Shown in pieces: positions 2,158-20,948 of a stretch of 44,804 nt of DNA. Each line of letters opens with the position of its first letter. Position 1 is the stretch's first letter. A model generated the notes under the pieces. That model did not search any database and was not told where the DNA came from. It was given only the letters and a program-made list of their open reading frames with translations. Position numbers and translations under genes: made by a program. The stretch spans positions 1 through 44,804 of the IMG/VR virus record IMGVR_UViG_3300033150_001682. One strand, written 5' to 3'. This DNA is from a virus.

Positions 2158-3273
2158 ATGAATATCAGTAACTTGTTGCAAAATAAACTCTTGCTCCAAT
2201 ACCTAGCTGGAGCCGGAGCTGACATCTCGGCAGGCCAGCCGATTGGTCAGAATGTTAATCTGATCACTCAGCAAAATATTGCTGCCCAGAACTTCATGGG
2301 ACTGCTGGCGAAGATGCTGAAAGGGGAAGTTCCAGAGGGTGGTAAGGTAACTATAGATAACAAGGGAACGAAGATAACAGTTCCTAAGGAATCCACTACC
2401 ATGCCAGCACCTCTGCGGAGTGCTATTGAGGGATCTCAGTTACCAGGTGGCTCTGGAATCGACTGGACTGATCCACGTAATCTCTCAAAACTGGGCGTCC
2501 TAAACCCTTCCGCTAGTCCAGCTATCGGTGGTGCCGAGCTAGCTGGGCTGACCCCTGCAAACATTTCACAGGCACTAACAGGCGCTATCAGTGTGGAGGC
2601 ATTGAAGCAGAAGAAACTGACTGATCTCGTAGACATGGCTTACAGGAGGGCTCTTACTGAGCAGGCTCTAGCCAATGTGGAGAAGGCGAGGAAACCTGAG
2701 GCTCTAGACCAACCTTTTGTTGGAGGTCTCACGCTTCGTCAGTTCAATGCACTTACCCCTGATGCTAAGGAATATGTGTTGGCTAAGCATGGTGCCAGGA
2801 TTCTTGGTGATACAGATTTTATGCCTAAAAGAGAATGGGATGAGACTTCTCCTACAGAGAAGAAGAAGTTCCTAACTGAGTTGGCCGAGGATCCTAGACT
2901 CCTTGACTTGCAGAAAGAACTCCTTGAGGCTGGTAGGAATGTTATCTCAATCGGCGAGAAGGCTGAGACTGCTGCGGCAGTGAGAGGTGCAGTTGAGAAC
3001 GTTAAAGCTAAAAAATACTTTGCCGACCCTAAGGGACTTGCTAGAGATGTAGATAGGTATATCAACTCGAACGAGGCCCGAGATCAGATTATTCGATACT
3101 CAGATCCACATAAAATTGAGGTAGAGACTATTAGACTTAAGGAAAAATTCATCAGAAGTCGGATAGCTTCTGCCGGTGGAACTATTGTCGACGAAAGACT
3201 TGAAGGTAGAACTTTCGTGTTTACTGTGAAATGGCCAGATGGAACAACTAGTGAGGTGCGCTATGCTAACTGA
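2158..3273 (+). CDS. Helical virion-associated protein of unknown function
   Basis: 371 residues from ATG 2158 with an upstream GGAGG. The N-terminal 50 residues are Gln/Asn/Ala-rich (QNVNLITQQNIAAQNFMG), followed by a Pro-rich linker and long charged helices. The last 60 residues form a small strand-rich domain. There is no recognised family motif. It lies between the glycine-zipper protein and the giant internal protein and overlaps the latter by 11 bases, so translational coupling and a shared role in the ejection apparatus are likely. Confidence 0.6.
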   Translation: MNISNLLQNKLLLQYLAGAGADISAGQPIGQNVNLITQQNIAAQNFMGLLAKMLKGEVPEGGKVTIDNKGTKITVPKESTTMPAPLRSAIEGSQLPGGSGIDWTDPRNLSKLGVLNPSASPAIGGAELAGLTPANISQALTGAISVEALKQKKLTDLVDMAYRRALTEQALANVEKARKPEALDQPFVGGLTLRQFNALTPDAKEYVLAKHGARILGDTDFMPKREWDETSPTEKKKFLTELAEDPRLLDLQKELLEAGRNVISIGEKAETAAAVRGAVENVKAKKYFADPKGLARDVDRYINSNEARDQIIRYSDPHKIEVETIRLKEKFIRSRIASAGGTIVDERLEGRTFVFTVKWPDGTTSEVRYAN

Positions 3274-6200
3274 CCAGTTATTTGGAGAGAGTGAGACTCC
3301 ACTAACAGATAAACTTTTTGCTGAGAAACCTAAGGGTCTAACTGATCAGCTAACTGAGCAGGAACGAGGAGAGCTGGAGGAAATAACTACAACTCTCAGA
3401 GCCGAATCACTTCGTGAGAAAGATATCGGCAAAGGGACAATTCAGGGTGCTTTTATGAAGGAGTTTCTGGCTCCTTCAGTTGAGGAGTTTGACTCCTTTA
3501 CAACTGAACCTGTTCTAAGATCTGTAGGTAAAACGTTGAAATCAGCTGCTAAAGCGGCTGGAATGGAGCTCTTAGCGGCCTCTGAACTGGCCATGTCATT
3601 GGCCAGTGGTATGCTGTTATATCTCCCCTCTAAACTCTACGGTCTGATGGCTCTTCCTTTTGGTAGGGAAGTTGCTAATGTAGCTGAGGAAGAAATGGCT
3701 AAGTTAGGGTATCATCCTCACACAGAGAAAGGTAAGGCTGCTGCTAAGTTAGTAGGGAAGGGGTTTGAAACATTTTTATCGCCAGCTCATAAACTAGATG
3801 AGGTTATAAGTGGGCTGAGTCCTGAAGCTGGATATTTGGTAGGATTTGGAGCTGAGCTTGCAGAGTTCGCTCTAACAGGAGGCATGGTTAAAGGGGCTAA
3901 AGCCAGGTTCAAGCCTACGATCGAACAGGCTAGGAGGATTATAGATGCCAAGAGGAAGATGGAGATAGATAGGATAAATGAATTGAAGAAACAGGCTGAG
4001 AACATTCCTAATGAAGCTATTAAGAGAGCCCAGCAGAAAATTCTTGAGGTTGAAAAGATTCAGGCTGAGATAGATGCCAAGGAGGCAATGGAGAATCTTG
4101 ACTACGGAGAGATGATTAAGGAGGACTTGCAGGTTAAAGGTAGGAGAATCAAGAAAATCAAACAACCTAAGAAATACATAGCTGATGAAGCTATTAATAA
4201 GGCTATGGAGAGAATCAAGGTTGAGAAGAAAAAACCTCCGAAGCCAAAGCCGTTGGATGAAGAAGCTATTGAGGACTTAGCAACTATCAATGCTATCGAG
4301 AAGCATTATGGGAGGAAGATAGATGAGATTAGTGATAAGGAGATAGAGGATTGGTTTGCTGAGCAGTACACTACTGAAGACTACGTCTTTGGAGTAAGTG
4401 ACCGTAGGTTTGATGTTCCTATGCCTACAAGGATAAGGTCCATCATAAGCACGTTAAAAGATGAACTCCCATCTTTATTTAAGACGAATCCAAAAATTAG
4501 AGTTATAAAAAGTGAGGAGTTCATGACTAGAACAAAAGAAGGATACGAGTCATGGAGGGGACTCTACGACTCTGAGACTAACACAATATTTATTCCAGAG
4601 GATGTTGCAACTTCGGACTTAATTCACGAACTAGTACATTCACTTCAGAAGAATCTAGCTAAGAAAGTAAGCAAGTCTAGGTTGGAAGATATAACTAAGA
4701 AAATTGAGGATAAGATATCATCTAGGATGGAGGAAGCAGAGGCAGAACCAATTACTGACCTCGACCTCCAGACTGGTGCTCGAGAGCCAGAGCAACTTTC
4801 TACTGAAAACTCTCCCTTCCGTGAGAAAGATCCAGAGGTCACTGCTCAACAGAGGAAGTTATTTGAGGAGAAGAAAATAGGTGATAGTCCAGAAGTGATG
4901 GTCTCTAAGTGGCTCAATGATGTGAATAGTTGGTTGGATGGGAAGGAGGTTGATATTGAGAAGGTTAGGGATAACTTGAGTACGTTAGCGATAGCTACTA
5001 AGGACCCAGCTAACAGAATTGCTCTGTTAGATTACTTTAATGGAGATGCTGCAGCAGTAGACAATTTTGCTGAGTTGGTGAGTAGTGCGGCTGAGTGGGC
5101 GAGGAGAGCAGAGAGGAGTAAGGCTGAGCCAGGGGTTCAACTGAATATGATGATTCCTGTTGACCAGCTTCCTGAGGCAGTTAGAGATTTGGTTCTGAAA
5201 GGTAAAGAGTTTGCAGGTAGAGTTATTAGAGCGGGTGATCTGTACCGCAATAAAACTATATTTGACAAGACCGGATTCTGGCTTGGGAAAGATGGAAAGT
5301 GGAGATATGAGATAGATGATAGTAAGGCCGAACTCAGACTCCCTAAGGATCGTCGCACGCTGGATGGTTTCTCTACAACGTTAGGAGAGATACTTGATTA
5401 TCCAGAACTGTATAAGACAGTTCCTGGAATAGACAGTATGAAAGTGTATTTCAGAGACTTAGGAGGCGATGCTGGACAGTATACTTCTGGAGGTGGCAGG
5501 ACACTCGGAAAGGGATACATAGCAATAGACCCACATAGATCTAGGAATATAAAGAAGACCTTGTTTCACGAGCTACAGCATGCAGTTAATGATGTAGCTG
5601 GGTCTAGATTTCGTGGAGCCAGTACTGGAGTTGCTGGAGGATACTTTGAGTATCTCATTGATCCTGGAGAAATGGAATCTCGTCTTGCTGAGAGAAGATT
5701 GAGGATGACTGCCGAGGAAAGAAAGAAGACTCCGCCTTGGGAGATGTTAGATAGGATGCTAAGAGCGGAGATGTTCACTAGGGATGTTAGATTAGGGCCT
5801 AAGTATGGAACTAAGCTCTACTCAGGAATTCCTATTGATCTAGCATACGAGAGATTAAAGAGAGGATTATCCAGAATCATAGACGATATAAGAAGAGGTG
5901 GACTCGAGGAATCAGCTAAACAAAATATCTTGAAAGGTTACGAGCTACTAGACAGAGATCTACATCGTGGAGCCACTTGGCTAGTTGCGCACGCTGATAC
6001 AGTTCTTCCTATAGTAGAAAGAAATAATCTCGACAAGCGTCCTCTAGAGATTGCTGCTAGGTATGTAATAGAGAATAATATAGAAATAGAAGGCATAGAC
6101 CTACAGGCTAGGGCCAGAAAGATGCTAAACAGAGCTACTGGCAAAGTAGTCAAGCTCTACGACATAGGAGGTGCTATTGGAGAAGGTGCTAAGCAAGTGA

Positions 6201-8917
6201 TTGAGCTCTACAAGAGTGCTAAGAGGAAGGGTGAGGAAGCTAGAGGGATTAAGGACTTCAAACCTAAGAGAGCTGTTAGAGAGTTGCTGAAGGAGCTCAC
6301 TAGGTCTTTCGTAGATCGCTCTGGAAATATAAGGAAGGACTTGCTGGACGTATTGGGAGAGAAAGGCTATGGTGTTATTCAGAGAATGTACCTCTCCAAG
6401 GGTGCTGGGGCTCTTGCAGCAGCAAAACTTAAGCAGATGCAGAAGGAAGTCTATGGAGGACTATCGAGGAATGAAAAGCGCATCCTCGATGATATTATCT
6501 TTCATTCTCGAATCCTAGACATAGCCAAGTATAAAACTGCAAAGGATTTTAAGGAGCTGAAGAAGTATCCTCCTGAGGAAAGCATAGCTTATCTAGAACT
6601 CTTTGGTGAGATGGAGGGGCTTTCTCCTGAGAGAGCTCATGAACTTTATCATGTTAGAGAAGATGGTGGTATAGGTGGGAGGGCTGGTGCATACTTTGAG
6701 TGGATGAGAAATACACTGAAGGATATGCTTGATGCAGAATTAATTACTGAACAAGAATTTAAGGATCTCTCTGCACACAACTATAGACGGCTGAAGATAG
6801 TTGATATATTTGATAAGAGAAGACCCTCGCTTGTTAAGAAGGGGATCAGTGTATATGACTCAGGAGTTGAAGCACTTGCTAAGGGAAGGGAATCGACTAT
6901 ATTTGAGCGAGATGCCCAGGTTATGGCTCTTGAAGTGTTTAATAGAGCCTATGGGAGAATCCTGAATAATGAGGCTAATAAGGCCTTGCTTGAGGTTGCT
7001 AGGAAGTATCCAGATAATCCTCTTGTTAGAGTAAGCGAGAAATACGGTGGTAAGGGGAAGATTCCATCTGGGTGGAATAGGATGTTCTTGTATGAGAAGG
7101 GTGAGAGGATTCCCATTTATCTTTCTCCGGATATGAGTAAGGAGTGGATTTCGGCTAATCCAGAGACCACTTATAGATATAGTCAGTTTTTGAGATATAT
7201 TTCAGGATCTCCTGTTCTAAGAACATTTGCTACTGGAATCAACTGGGGGTTTGCTCTAGCCAATATTCCTAGGGATGTGATGCACTTGTGGTTTGCTGCT
7301 AGAGTTTACGAAGATGGAAAGTGGAAGCCTGTTTATAGTTCTCACGCTCCAGTTTTTGCAGCTCAGCTCACGAGAGACCTACTGGTGGTATTCCCTGATG
7401 CTGCGCTGAGGAGAGGAAGGTACAAGGATTATATCAACGAAGGTGGCGGGATGGAGTTCCTAGTTCACCAAGGCAGGATTCTCAGACGTGGAAGACATAT
7501 TGAAGGGCCGCTGGATGCTTTTTATAAGTACCTAGGATACTTTGGTGAGACATCTGAAATTTTGACTCGTCTAGCGATTCGTGAGAGGGTGATTAGGAGG
7601 AGGGCTAGGGAGAGAGGTATTTCGGTTGAGAAGGCAAGGAGAGATCCTAAGATTGCAAAGGAAGCTACATTTGCAGCAAGGGATTATATAGACTTTGGCC
7701 AGGGTGGAGGGATAGCTAAGGCACTTGATAATGCTATTCCTTATTTCAATGCTCCTATCCAAGGGACAAGAGGGTTGCTCAGAGCTTTCAAAGATAACCC
7801 TTGGTCATCTATGTATAAACTGTCTCAGTTTGCTGCACTTGTAACTGGATTGGAGATAGCTGCTGAGAAGTTCGCTTCTCAGACCATGAAAGAAGTTACT
7901 GGTTCTGTAGATGATAAGAATAATCTTATTATTCCGCTAGGGGATAGATTCTCGTTTGTGGATGAGAGGGGTCAGACGAGATACCCATATTTCAAAATTC
8001 CTCTTGATCCAGGTCAAAGATTCTTCAAAGCATTTTTCAGAGCGGCTGCTAGAAAGTGGCTCGGGTATGAAGTTGATGAAGGAGAGGTTGCCTCTACATT
8101 GAAGGAGCTGTTTCCTGTTGAAGGCACCAGTGGTGTGCTTCCTCCAACGCTTAGTGGAGCTCTTGGGTATGTCACTAATAAGGACTTTTGGCTGAATGAA
8201 GATGTGTGGAAGAAGACCGAGCCGTTTAGTTTTCCCCGCAGTAAGGAGGAATATACGAGTAGAACTCCTGAGGCTTATATAGATATTGGAAAGTTAACTG
8301 GACTGAGTCCGGAGAGGACTAGGTATGTAGTTGAGGAACTGGTTACAAATGGAACTGTCTGGTCTTACTTGCTCGGCCAAGGTTATGATGCAGCTTTTGG
8401 TGATCTTCCTAAAGAGAAAAAGGAGCAGCATCTAGCTATGGTTCTTTCTGAGATGCCTATTATAAGAAGATTCATAGGTGTCACCAATCCTTACATGAAG
8501 CACGCCACAAAGATTGATGAGGCTCAAGAGAAGGCAGTGCTGGAGAGATTTGTGCAGAATAGAAACTTCGATATTAAAGTTGAGGCTTATCTTTATGGGA
8601 AGCCTGGATTGGTGAGTAGAGAAGAGGTTATCAAAGAGGCTCGAAAGTATAAGGATGTAGAGACCTACGATCGACTAATGGATAGATTCAGATTCGAGGA
8701 AGCAATCAAAGATCTACCTGAGAAATCCTTCTGGCGAAGAATGAAGGGGTTGATGACTGAAGCTAAGGCTAGAGTGTTTGTGGATAGATTGAAGAGTGCT
8801 AGTGAAGAGGAGAAGGATCAGCTGTGGCGAGAGTATGTAATAATCTCCAGAGCAAAAGGCGTTATTTCTCCAGAGTTTAGGAGCGAAGTAGAGAGACTGA
8901 TGAGAGAAGAAAGATGA
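3263..8917 (+). CDS. Giant internal virion protein with two zinc-protease motifs (large polyvalent protein)
   Basis: 1884 residues from ATG 3263, chosen because GAGGTG lies six bases upstream; an in-frame ATG at 3239 has no such site. Residues about 100-135 form a hydrophobic helix (ELAMSLASGMLLYLPSKLYG). Two metalloprotease HExxH motifs are visible: HELVH at 455-459 and HELQH at 769-773; the second is followed by a Gly-rich loop and then GEMESRLAERR, as in large-polyvalent-protein peptidase domains. The C-terminal third (IDFGQGG...IPYFNAPIQGTRG) matches my memory of the LPD38 family of phage giant proteins. These are packaged in the capsid and ejected. The TGA stop lies inside palindromic copy 3. 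Confidence 0.85.
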   Translation: MLTDQLFGESETPLTDKLFAEKPKGLTDQLTEQERGELEEITTTLRAESLREKDIGKGTIQGAFMKEFLAPSVEEFDSFTTEPVLRSVGKTLKSAAKAAGMELLAASELAMSLASGMLLYLPSKLYGLMALPFGREVANVAEEEMAKLGYHPHTEKGKAAAKLVGKGFETFLSPAHKLDEVISGLSPEAGYLVGFGAELAEFALTGGMVKGAKARFKPTIEQARRIIDAKRKMEIDRINELKKQAENIPNEAIKRAQQKILEVEKIQAEIDAKEAMENLDYGEMIKEDLQVKGRRIKKIKQPKKYIADEAINKAMERIKVEKKKPPKPKPLDEEAIEDLATINAIEKHYGRKIDEISDKEIEDWFAEQYTTEDYVFGVSDRRFDVPMPTRIRSIISTLKDELPSLFKTNPKIRVIKSEEFMTRTKEGYESWRGLYDSETNTIFIPEDVATSDLIHELVHSLQKNLAKKVSKSRLEDITKKIEDKISSRMEEAEAEPITDLDLQTGAREPEQLSTENSPFREKDPEVTAQQRKLFEEKKIGDSPEVMVSKWLNDVNSWLDGKEVDIEKVRDNLSTLAIATKDPANRIALLDYFNGDAAAVDNFAELVSSAAEWARRAERSKAEPGVQLNMMIPVDQLPEAVRDLVLKGKEFAGRVIRAGDLYRNKTIFDKTGFWLGKDGKWRYEIDDSKAELRLPKDRRTLDGFSTTLGEILDYPELYKTVPGIDSMKVYFRDLGGDAGQYTSGGGRTLGKGYIAIDPHRSRNIKKTLFHELQHAVNDVAGSRFRGASTGVAGGYFEYLIDPGEMESRLAERRLRMTAEERKKTPPWEMLDRMLRAEMFTRDVRLGPKYGTKLYSGIPIDLAYERLKRGLSRIIDDIRRGGLEESAKQNILKGYELLDRDLHRGATWLVAHADTVLPIVERNNLDKRPLEIAARYVIENNIEIEGIDLQARARKMLNRATGKVVKLYDIGGAIGEGAKQVIELYKSAKRKGEEARGIKDFKPKRAVRELLKELTRSFVDRSGNIRKDLLDVLGEKGYGVIQRMYLSKGAGALAAAKLKQMQKEVYGGLSRNEKRILDDIIFHSRILDIAKYKTAKDFKELKKYPPEESIAYLELFGEMEGLSPERAHELYHVREDGGIGGRAGAYFEWMRNTLKDMLDAELITEQEFKDLSAHNYRRLKIVDIFDKRRPSLVKKGISVYDSGVEALAKGRESTIFERDAQVMALEVFNRAYGRILNNEANKALLEVARKYPDNPLVRVSEKYGGKGKIPSGWNRMFLYEKGERIPIYLSPDMSKEWISANPETTYRYSQFLRYISGSPVLRTFATGINWGFALANIPRDVMHLWFAARVYEDGKWKPVYSSHAPVFAAQLTRDLLVVFPDAALRRGRYKDYINEGGGMEFLVHQGRILRRGRHIEGPLDAFYKYLGYFGETSEILTRLAIRERVIRRRARERGISVEKARRDPKIAKEATFAARDYIDFGQGGGIAKALDNAIPYFNAPIQGTRGLLRAFKDNPWSSMYKLSQFAALVTGLEIAAEKFASQTMKEVTGSVDDKNNLIIPLGDRFSFVDERGQTRYPYFKIPLDPGQRFFKAFFRAAARKWLGYEVDEGEVASTLKELFPVEGTSGVLPPTLSGALGYVTNKDFWLNEDVWKKTEPFSFPRSKEEYTSRTPEAYIDIGKLTGLSPERTRYVVEELVTNGTVWSYLLGQGYDAAFGDLPKEKKEQHLAMVLSEMPIIRRFIGVTNPYMKHATKIDEAQEKAVLERFVQNRNFDIKVEAYLYGKPGLVSREEVIKEARKYKDVETYDRLMDRFRFEEAIKDLPEKSFWRRMKGLMTEAKARVFVDRLKSASEEEKDQLWREYVIISRAKGVISPEFRSEVERLMREER

Positions 8918-19992: not shown

Positions 19993-20190
19993 CTATATTA
20001 TTTCTAAAGTTATCCGTTCTCCTTTTTGTAAAGAGACAATTTTTATTTCTATAATTCGACAAGACCAGCAACTATCTACTCCCGGATGGCTCAAATTCAT
20101 TACCTCAAACTTATCAGTTGAAGCTGTTCTCATTACAATACAGCCTTTATAGCAGCCATCTATGACCTTGCCAATTTCGCAAGGTTCCAT
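19993..20190 (-). CDS. Hypothetical protein, strand-rich
   Basis: 65 residues. The sequence reads like a small beta-barrel (IGKVIDGCYKGCIVMR, then CRIIEIKIVSLQKGERITLEII). There are five cysteines, two pairs of them close (CYKGC, CWSC). AGGG is near the start. Function unknown. Confidence 0.5.
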   Translation of the reverse strand: MEPCEIGKVIDGCYKGCIVMRTASTDKFEVMNLSHPGVDSCWSCRIIEIKIVSLQKGERITLEII

Positions 20191-20269: not shown

Positions 20270-20469
20270 GCCGCAGCCAGGATTCGAACCTGGACGGAGC
20301 AGTTACGACGATACCCGCTGGTATCCTTCCTCCACGCCGTCGTCCTCACTGCTCCTGCATGTTAGCAGTGTCTACCAAGGGCAGGTGGCGTCCGAGTCTA
20401 AATTGCTAGACTCGGCCCCTATGTACACTCAGGTTTGCACTGTCGCCTGCCACATTCCACCACTGCAGC
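20270..20469 (-). ncRNA. 200-nt tRNA-like RNA with expanded interior
   Basis: Read on the - strand, the ends pair as a 7-bp acceptor stem (GCTGCAG / CTGCGGC, one G-U pair), and the 3' part is a perfect T-arm (CCAGG, loop TTCGAAT, CCTGG). The D-arm region matches leucine-type tRNA words: TGGTGGAAT and, 75 bases later, TTGGTAGACAC, whose outer three pairs can form. Between them lies a hairpin CCGAGTCTA/TAGACTCGG inside GGCAGG/CCTGCC. Further on, GGAGCAGT pairs with ACTGCTCC around ACGAC/GTCGT and GATACC/GGTATC. No normal 7-base anticodon loop is visible. It could be an intron-bearing or insertion-bearing tRNA, or a tRNA mimic. No encoded CCA. Confidence 0.6.
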
Positions 20470-20481
20470 CATAAATTATCT

Positions 20482-20685
20482 CTAAACGTAAGTATCATAA
20501 AGGTCTCCATCAGCTGTCATTTGTCTCATGTACCCATCACACCCTGGACAGCGTGCGTATCCTTTGTCATCTTTCTTCGCCCTCTCAATTGGTATTTGGT
20601 GGTAACACTTTAGGCACCTGAACGTGAGAGGCCTCTCATCCCATTTTATTGTATTAATGTGCGCAGCATTATCTGGAATGTTCAT
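20482..20685 (-). CDS. Zinc-ribbon microprotein
   Basis: 67 residues. CLKCYHQIP and, 22 residues on, CPGC form a four-cysteine zinc ribbon in the middle. GAAGGAGAG stands before the ATG. The stop is 13 bases before the tRNA-like RNA, and a copy of the RNA's 5' end lies just upstream of its start (20698-20723). Function unknown. Confidence 0.6.
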   Translation of the reverse strand: MNIPDNAAHINTIKWDERPLTFRCLKCYHQIPIERAKKDDKGYARCPGCDGYMRQMTADGDLYDTYV

Positions 20686-20717: not shown

Positions 20718-20948
20718 TTATCTGTCCAGCGCTTCTTCTCCTTCCACAGTAAAGAGGCAATGTGCCCTTACTGAAGAAGGGCTGTTGTATCCTAGACTGA
20801 GTAATGCTCCGAACAACTGCCATTCTCCAATTCTGAAAGTTAGCTCTCCACAATTTGCGAGAGTCTCCTCCTCAGATCCCATAAAGACAGAGCAGCGAAT
20901 GTGATTTCCTGCTCTCTTTAGCTTTAATTTTAGGTGGGTTCTTTTCAT
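20718..20948 (-). CDS. Hypothetical protein
   Basis: 76 residues beginning MKRTHLKLKLKRAGNHIRC, a basic N-terminus, then an acidic middle and a strand-rich part (ELTFRIGEWQLFGALLSLG). AGGAGAGAAG precedes the start. No family recognised; its place in the early operon suggests an accessory early protein. Confidence 0.5.
   Translation of the reverse strand: MKRTHLKLKLKRAGNHIRCSVFMGSEEETLANCGELTFRIGEWQLFGALLSLGYNSPSSVRAHCLFTVEGEEALDR

Follow-up and report, generated by a model that had tools for sequence, protein, structure and literature searches.

The ends and the elbow of a tRNA are what RNase P, RNase Z and the CCA enzyme recognise, and several known RNAs keep such parts in an otherwise unusual body. 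In tmRNA, a helix in the direction of a long variable arm leads to pseudoknots, and in the engineered tRNA scaffold a foreign RNA replaces the anticodon arm for stability, with no second insert in the D-loop. Phage T4 encodes rnaC (species 1 RNA), a stable RNA of 139 nt that lies beside tRNA genes and has the T-arm CCGGG TTCGAAT CCCGG. The bacterial Y RNA YrlA imitates three tRNA arms, namely D, T and acceptor (PMC8394870, in excerpt).

The RNA described in this study is encoded in a virus record of 44,804 bases, the whole of which is referred to here as the window. It is a tRNA-like RNA of 200 nt that runs from G1 to C72 on the minus strand (20469→20270), and it belongs to a class of RNAs in which a tRNA acceptor, D and T core is combined with an expanded middle that is not an anticodon arm. 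Searches of one open-access library, made up mostly of papers other than subscription articles and preprints, on tRNA-like, mimic, decoy, scaffold and Y RNAs, on atypical tRNAs and tRNA arrays, and on cyanobacterial tRNA operons turned up no description of the class, so that one may exist elsewhere. The reading preferred here, with a probability of roughly one half, is that this is a phage-encoded RNA without an anticodon that serves as a natural tRNA scaffold, and that its exchangeable structured payload would act in trans.

Results

The arrangement scanned for, consisting of an acceptor with 7/7 pairs, U8, a D-stem of 3/3, GG in the D-loop and a T-stem of 5/5, has a single match in the window, and 60 dinucleotide shuffles of that sequence contain no match. 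This bears out the observation and the coordinates of an earlier note made from the letters of the window, and places the RNA on the minus strand. The acceptor and T-arm, described in that note as near perfect, pair throughout, and the Leu-type D-arm words are indeed split by exactly 75 nt that fold. The parts of the RNA are, from 5' to 3':

20270–20469, minus strand: whole tRNA-like RNA, 200 nt, with its 5' end at 20469 and its acceptor 3' end at 20270
20463–20469, minus strand: acceptor 5' strand GCTGCAG, 7/7 pairs with 20276–20270
20458–20460, minus strand: D-stem 5' strand GTG, 3/3 pairs with CAC
20454–20457, minus strand: first part of the D-loop, GAAT (A14, A15), from the arrangement scan
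20379–20453, minus strand: 75-nt D-loop insert, with outer helix GGCAGG/CCTGCC and hairpin CCGAGTCTA/TAGACTCGG, z −3.7 against shuffles
20371–20378, minus strand: second part of the D-loop, TTGGTAGA (G18 G19), from the arrangement scan
20368–20370, minus strand: D-stem 3' strand CAC, 3/3 pairs with GTG
20294–20367, minus strand: structured middle of 74 nt, which replaces the anticodon and variable arms, last base U48, z −4.0
20357–20361, minus strand: 5' strand CATGC of a possible crossing helix S1, pairing with GCGTG at 20337–20333 (single-sequence pairing)
20348–20355, minus strand: 5' strand of helix S2, GGAGCAGT, in the minimum-energy fold
20333–20337, minus strand: 3' strand GCGTG of the possible crossing helix S1, partner of CATGC
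20296–20303, minus strand: 3' strand of helix S2, ACTGCTCC, ending 2 nt short of the T-stem, in the minimum-energy fold
20277–20293, minus strand: T-arm CCAGG TTCGAAT CCTGG, 5/5 pairs
20270–20276, minus strand: acceptor 3' strand CTGCGGC, 7/7 pairs, one of them U-G
20269, minus strand: base 73, C, identical in the relative L001

U8-G9 lies between the acceptor and the D-stem, the D-loop is of the Leu type, and the features of an ordinary tRNA-Leu that are present comprise the 7-bp acceptor, the D-stem, the T-arm, G18G19 and A15-U48. An eighth acceptor pair is possible between G (20470) and C (20269), and the 8-bp acceptor would then precede A C. The alanine identity pair G3-U70 is absent, being U3-G70 in the window RNA and C3-G70 in L001.

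Both the D-insert and the middle are more stable than their shuffles. With the tRNA core enforced, the fold reaches −84.5 kcal/mol against a free minimum of −85.6 kcal/mol, a cost of just 1.1 kcal/mol, and this fold includes the GGAGCAGT/ACTGCTCC helix and has no anticodon stem-loop (U33 and anticodon). Of the two mutually exclusive pairings previously proposed for this region, each is present as a string of letters, but the balance between them is uneven; the competing local TGCT/AGCA hairpin is 12.7 kcal/mol less favourable with the core enforced, and its neighbouring CAC is required by the D-stem. The pseudoknot predicted for the window RNA (S1 crossing S2) is possible on single-sequence pairing. 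An antisense guide against the phage's own genome was rejected, as no complement to the RNA elsewhere in the window is longer than 13 nt, a length judged unremarkable.

ARAGORN predicted no tRNA or tmRNA genes in the window, and Rfam gave no matches at the gathering threshold. At E ≤ 10, over 651 bases, only a chance-level mascRNA match (14.5 bits, gathering 42.5) and one miRNA family were returned; neither the tmRNA covariance model RF00023 nor any Rfam intron model matched the window RNA. A plain tRNA, a tmRNA and a tRNA with a group I intron were rejected on these grounds, in line with the earlier claim that the RNA is neither a tmRNA, a plain tRNA nor a tRNA with an intron at the usual place. 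Nothing matching the window region was found in the reference phages.

Both flanking ORFs are codirectional with the RNA and lie within about 80 nt of it:

20482–20685, minus strand: 67-aa ORF just upstream, with sub-threshold zinc-ribbon matches, ending 12 nt before G1
19993–20190, minus strand: 65-aa ORF just downstream, with no Pfam match

As there are also no promoter or terminator matches beyond chance around the RNA, it is likely to be co-transcribed with its neighbours and then excised. An orphan copy of its 5' end is present at 20726–20700 on the minus strand (compare 20486–20459; GATAACCTATGGCCGCAGTGG against GATAATTTATGGCTGCAGTGG), and this copy and the RNA's own 5' end flank the zinc-ribbon-like ORF (20685–20482), while in L001 the RNA comes directly after the TSCPD gene. 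It looks as if another gene had entered the tRNA-like gene at its 5' end, with the acceptor strand regenerated. Elsewhere in the window, positions 11036–13549 (minus strand) encode a family A DNA polymerase with an N-terminal domain resembling uracil-DNA glycosylase.

When 2.9 million viral contigs were scanned with an exact pattern, two contigs with the RNA were found, L003/L196, in which its sequence is identical, and L001. Between the window and L001, identity is 94.1% from the acceptor to the D-arm including the insert, 96% over the T-arm plus acceptor, 93.2% in the 600 nt downstream and 81.3% in the upstream TSCPD gene, but just 45.7% in the middle, which by our judgement, rather than by shuffles of this comparison, is about what a gapped alignment of unrelated sequence would give. 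Both have unbroken acceptor, D and T stems, and a C-G pair of the D-insert hairpin in the window is U-A in L001, a compensatory change. In L001 a helix GGAGAG/CTCTCC, with letters differing from those of the window, precedes the T-stem; its middle alone, with z −0.98, is no more stable than shuffles. Judging from these alignments, the middle has been swapped or changed beyond recognition whilst the remainder of the RNA was kept.

The RNA is absent from three more distant relatives, identified by their Sak4-like protein (L197–L199), and from the nearest reference phage, Desulfofustis phage LS06-2018-MD01, whose DNA polymerase is 45.6% identical over 98%. Conservation of the acceptor and T-arm in related phages, the lack of which would by the earlier note have refuted its reading, thus extends to L001 and L003/L196 but not to these phages. 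Because more distant relatives are without it, the RNA is accessory and dispensable. A match in L002 was rejected as a chance occurrence, apparently within a protein gene.

The window by itself could not show that this RNA is one of a large class. Viral contigs and genomes yielded at least 131 distinct RNAs that combine a Leu-like tRNA body with a middle of 33–119 nt and have no ARAGORN call. The class was first searched for by its Leu D-arm pattern, and the cut-offs and filters were our own choice and shaped the counts. One pattern, in which the Leu D-loop and the T-loop are more distant than an ordinary tRNA-Leu allows, gave at least 120 viral contig stretches; a second, for D-loops interrupted at the same site, gave 36 stretches, and the genome collection gave 39. 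A structural filter (acceptor ≥6/7, D-stem 3/3, T-stem ≥4/5) left at least 170 distinct RNAs, and among the matches listed the removal of 30 called by ARAGORN, 3 with N and 6 with tRNA motifs in the middle reduced the 170 to 131. Some genome-collection matches proved to be duplicated or tandem ordinary tRNA-Leu genes, and in those of L125 and L150 the middles were masked. Some members with long insertions have Rfam tRNA matches (30–53 bits), so that a few would be labelled "tRNA" by that model.

G18G19 and the T-loop were written into the search pattern, whereas U48, U(-1), A73 and C74 were in neither pattern nor filter. Among the matches listed, U48 is present in 128 of the 131 RNAs and U(-1) in 89, with T at −4, −3 and −2 in 29, 43 and 37; A73 is found in 93/131 and C74 in 106/131. 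A comparable share, 16/26, has U(-1) among the ordinary tRNAs in phage L263. The retention of these features may be a sign of a working tRNA core and of cleavage by RNase P. The suggestion of a tRNA mimic for RNase P/Z or tRNA-binding proteins is, in so far as the ends, the elbow contacts and the U(-1) enrichment bear on it, consistent with what is seen.

Of the middles among the matches listed, 192 distinct ones were examined, 173 of them non-redundant. In these 173, the best ungapped helix ending 2 nt before the T-stem has a mean of −2.89 kcal/mol, compared with −0.9 kcal/mol when shuffled. Among the matches listed, a helix at the place of S2 with −4 kcal/mol or better occurs in 44% of middles vs 14% of shuffles, and a second helix crossing S2 in 23% vs 4 ± 1% (letters permuted, last two bases fixed), which makes a pseudoknot possible in the 23%. 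Compensatory changes were counted in both directions over 31 related pairs of middles among the matches listed; S2 has 10 compensatory cells at its true register and 2, 0, 1, 1, 2 and 0 when the register is shifted by −3 to +3, and the crossing helix S1 has 1 vs 0 over these 31 pairs.

D-loop inserts of several unrelated kinds occupy exactly the same site in many members. One of them, GTTAAC...GTTAAC, recurs in about 10 contigs with mostly different middles, and contains a T-arm-like hairpin, GTGG-TTAGAAT-CCAC (L091, L083, L164, L166, L177, L182, L183, L185, L191 and L192). The precise recurrence of the site, and the fact that GAAT and TTGGTAGA joined give a Leu D-loop almost exactly, would suit an ordinary tRNA-Leu still in precursor form, with two introns, one in the D-loop and one in the anticodon region. 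There is, however, no recognisable anticodon stem-loop in the window RNA or in L001, whose middles are unrelated, no Rfam intron family matches and ARAGORN finds no tRNA, which leaves such a precursor highly improbable. Equally improbable is a decaying tRNA pseudogene. The missing anticodon and the absence of the RNA from more distant relatives are what decay would leave, but none of the three stems (acceptor, D and T) is broken in the window or in L001, the compensatory change preserves the D-insert hairpin, and change falls in the middle and not at the ends; more than 100 parallel cases also retain U48 and the excess of S2 helices.

The nearest ORFs are both codirectional in 69/131 class loci among the matches listed, and no neighbour gene is common to them, the largest family being found at 6 loci among the matches listed and including relatives of the window phage's Sak4 gene. 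Cellular copies are rare. In the phylum to which the Sphingobacterium locus belongs, 5 of 395 genomes have a match, and one of these is the query genome itself; in another phylum there is a match in 1 of 398 genomes, and it is the query's own duplicated tRNA. Among isolates, the copy at L158 (the Sphingobacterium locus, Bacteroidota) lies next to genes for a terminase and a portal protein, and that at L146 next to an ERF recombinase, which suggests that these copies reside in prophages. In L142, L377 and L378, which include Chlorobaculum, Leu-type tRNA-like genes were observed with a hairpin of about 45 nt for an anticodon arm and a short variable arm, and their stems co-vary between copies.

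The tRNA-like modules invite comparison with bacterial Y RNAs, in which a tRNA-like module is joined to a Ro60-binding stem, YrlA likewise mimicking tRNA arms (PMC8394870, in excerpt). Arrays of up to 11 tRNA-like RNAs with varied tRNA bodies occur in the cyanobacterial L129, L134 and L148, with a CUUGCC-loop-GGGCCGAAG hairpin common to all, and the array of L148 (Prochloron; 2502–5694) is followed by a TROVE/Ro60 gene (5664–7337), an adjacency that speaks for a Y RNA. The hairpin conserved in these arrays resembles what we take to be the Ro60 motif. A regular expression for the motif, in the form we assume it to have, matched 0 of the 192 class middles and 0 of the 191 RNAs of the family described below, among the matches listed, and did not match the window RNA; the window record has no TROVE protein, although the host may supply one, and there is no Rfam match. 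With both the motif and a TROVE gene absent, a YrlA-like RNA was rejected as very improbable.

A recurring family with AGTCAGG/CCTGACT ends comprises at least 191 distinct RNAs, with lengths from 53 to 237 nt. Searches with an exact 5'-side 26-mer and with an exact 3'-side 24-mer, the latter leaving the D-arm free, each gave at least 120 stretches; the set starts at the exact 24-mer, with 26 occurrences dropped for having no 5' acceptor within 260 nt, and among the matches listed 11 of the 115 occurrences of the 26-mer are without a matching T-arm and acceptor. Among the matches listed, 152/191 are without an ARAGORN call, the rest having scattered calls for many amino acids, and 137/191 have a Leu-like D-arm although the search was blind to it. 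As the other 54/191 have different D-arms, the constant part of the family appears from its sequences to be the acceptor/T-arm minihelix. Against the reference phages, the AGTCAGG RNA of L023 matched only four tRNA-Gln genes, by their T-arm. In L207 (553–939), a phage contig, a full Rfam tmRNA match lies beside an AGTCAGG RNA.

These D-arms bear on whether the RNA is leucylated and acts on the ribosome, being charged by LeuRS and carried by EF-Tu, with the payload replacing codon reading (as a tmRNA-like entry, a translation inhibitor, or a leucine donor to a non-ribosomal enzyme). According to a review, E. coli LeuRS charges tRNA-Leu lacking the anticodon and variable arms given A73 and the D/T-loop contacts, and C73 abolishes charging of such truncated tRNA-Leu (PMC9976931). 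Most class members have what LeuRS would need by that account, keeping U48 as well as the G18G19 and T-loop that the pattern required, with A73 in 93/131 among the matches listed, and the Leu-like D-arm prevails in the AGTCAGG family unsought. The window RNA, on the other hand, has C73 in the 7-bp register, which should abolish charging according to the same review unless the acceptor is of 8 bp followed by A, and among the matches listed 38/131 class RNAs are without A73. Charging is ranked second because other D-arms occur within the AGTCAGG family, and it is on balance unlikely.

At least 223 loci have an AGTCAGG 3' end, of which 74 hold two or more RNAs and 139 have no ordinary tRNA in the stretch examined; in L263 (479–6071), 26 ordinary tRNA genes are interleaved with several AGTCAGG RNAs. 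Membership in ordinary tRNA arrays such as that of L263 would suit a decoy for tRNA-attacking defence nucleases or tRNA-sensing regulators, with the elbow as bait and the missing anticodon loop making it uncuttable, and anticodon nucleases do confront phages (PMC7824862, in excerpt). Bait for an anticodon nuclease would nevertheless be expected to retain the anticodon loop, the 139 of 223 loci without an ordinary tRNA (among the matches listed) do not fit, and the exchanged, structured middles are left unexplained, so that a decoy, which the earlier note had also proposed, is improbable.

Discussion

The best-supported common denominator of these RNAs is a constant tRNA chassis with a swapped structured payload. 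In the scaffold reading, the RNA probably sits in a polycistronic transcript, from which host RNase P and RNase Z would cut it, reading the acceptor/T-arm minihelix and the D-loop/T-loop elbow; CCA would then be added, and the tRNA fold would protect the RNA. Since the ends and elbow hold what these enzymes read, a mature, fold-protected RNA is to be expected. Codon reading is impossible as there is no anticodon arm, the place of which would be taken by the exchangeable payload, often with pseudoknot-like crossing helices, and in the window RNA a second structured domain is added in the D-loop. The anatomy, the class and the replacement of the middle are shown by the sequences, and processing and CCA addition are suggested by sequence signals. 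The payload would act in trans, its most likely mode being to bind a factor of the host or of a competing phage. The exchange of the middle between phage stretches that are otherwise about 93% identical suggests that the payload has a specificity role in conflict.

A broader and more tentative proposal, to which we would give rather less than even odds, is that phages have evolved a natural tRNA-scaffold platform on a large scale. The minihelix chassis would be matured and stabilised by host tRNA enzymes, and the anticodon arm would be a cassette site for pseudoknotted effectors that are swapped between phages, with one or several in each, perhaps as specificity modules in conflict. Such effectors could perhaps be RNA mimics that neutralise defences, or regulators brought to the ribosome by EF-Tu.

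ARAGORN misses most of the RNAs collected here. Numerous phage RNAs that keep all the needs of tRNA maturation without codon reading would amount to a considerable gap in the annotation of tRNAs and other RNAs. Should the middle prove to be an exchangeable effector, phages would have a new route by which RNA effectors are stabilised and diversified, with the collection offering ready variants for tests on defence systems, LeuRS, EF-Tu and SmpB. The class may also connect to T4 rnaC, a stable RNA annotated without a function. The window RNA and rnaC share the type of T-arm only; the best acceptor pairing found for rnaC in our alignment is 5/7, and the Leu D-arm words were not seen in it.

With tmRNA (RF00023), the window RNA shares tRNA-like ends and the missing anticodon arm, but it is far smaller, has a full D-stem, has U-G at 3-70 (C-G in L001) and not G-U, and has no Rfam match. 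YrlA is likewise a modular RNA with a tRNA-like module (PMC8394870, in excerpt), whereas the window RNA is without the Ro60 motif, its acceptor end is intact and its record has no Ro60 gene. Bacterial tRNA-Leu has the same D-arm and D-loop words, A15-U48 and T-arm; the window RNA differs in having no anticodon arm, a 75-nt D-loop insert and C73 (in the 7-bp register). The engineered tRNA scaffold is a product of design, whereas the window RNA is natural and carries a second insert in its D-loop.
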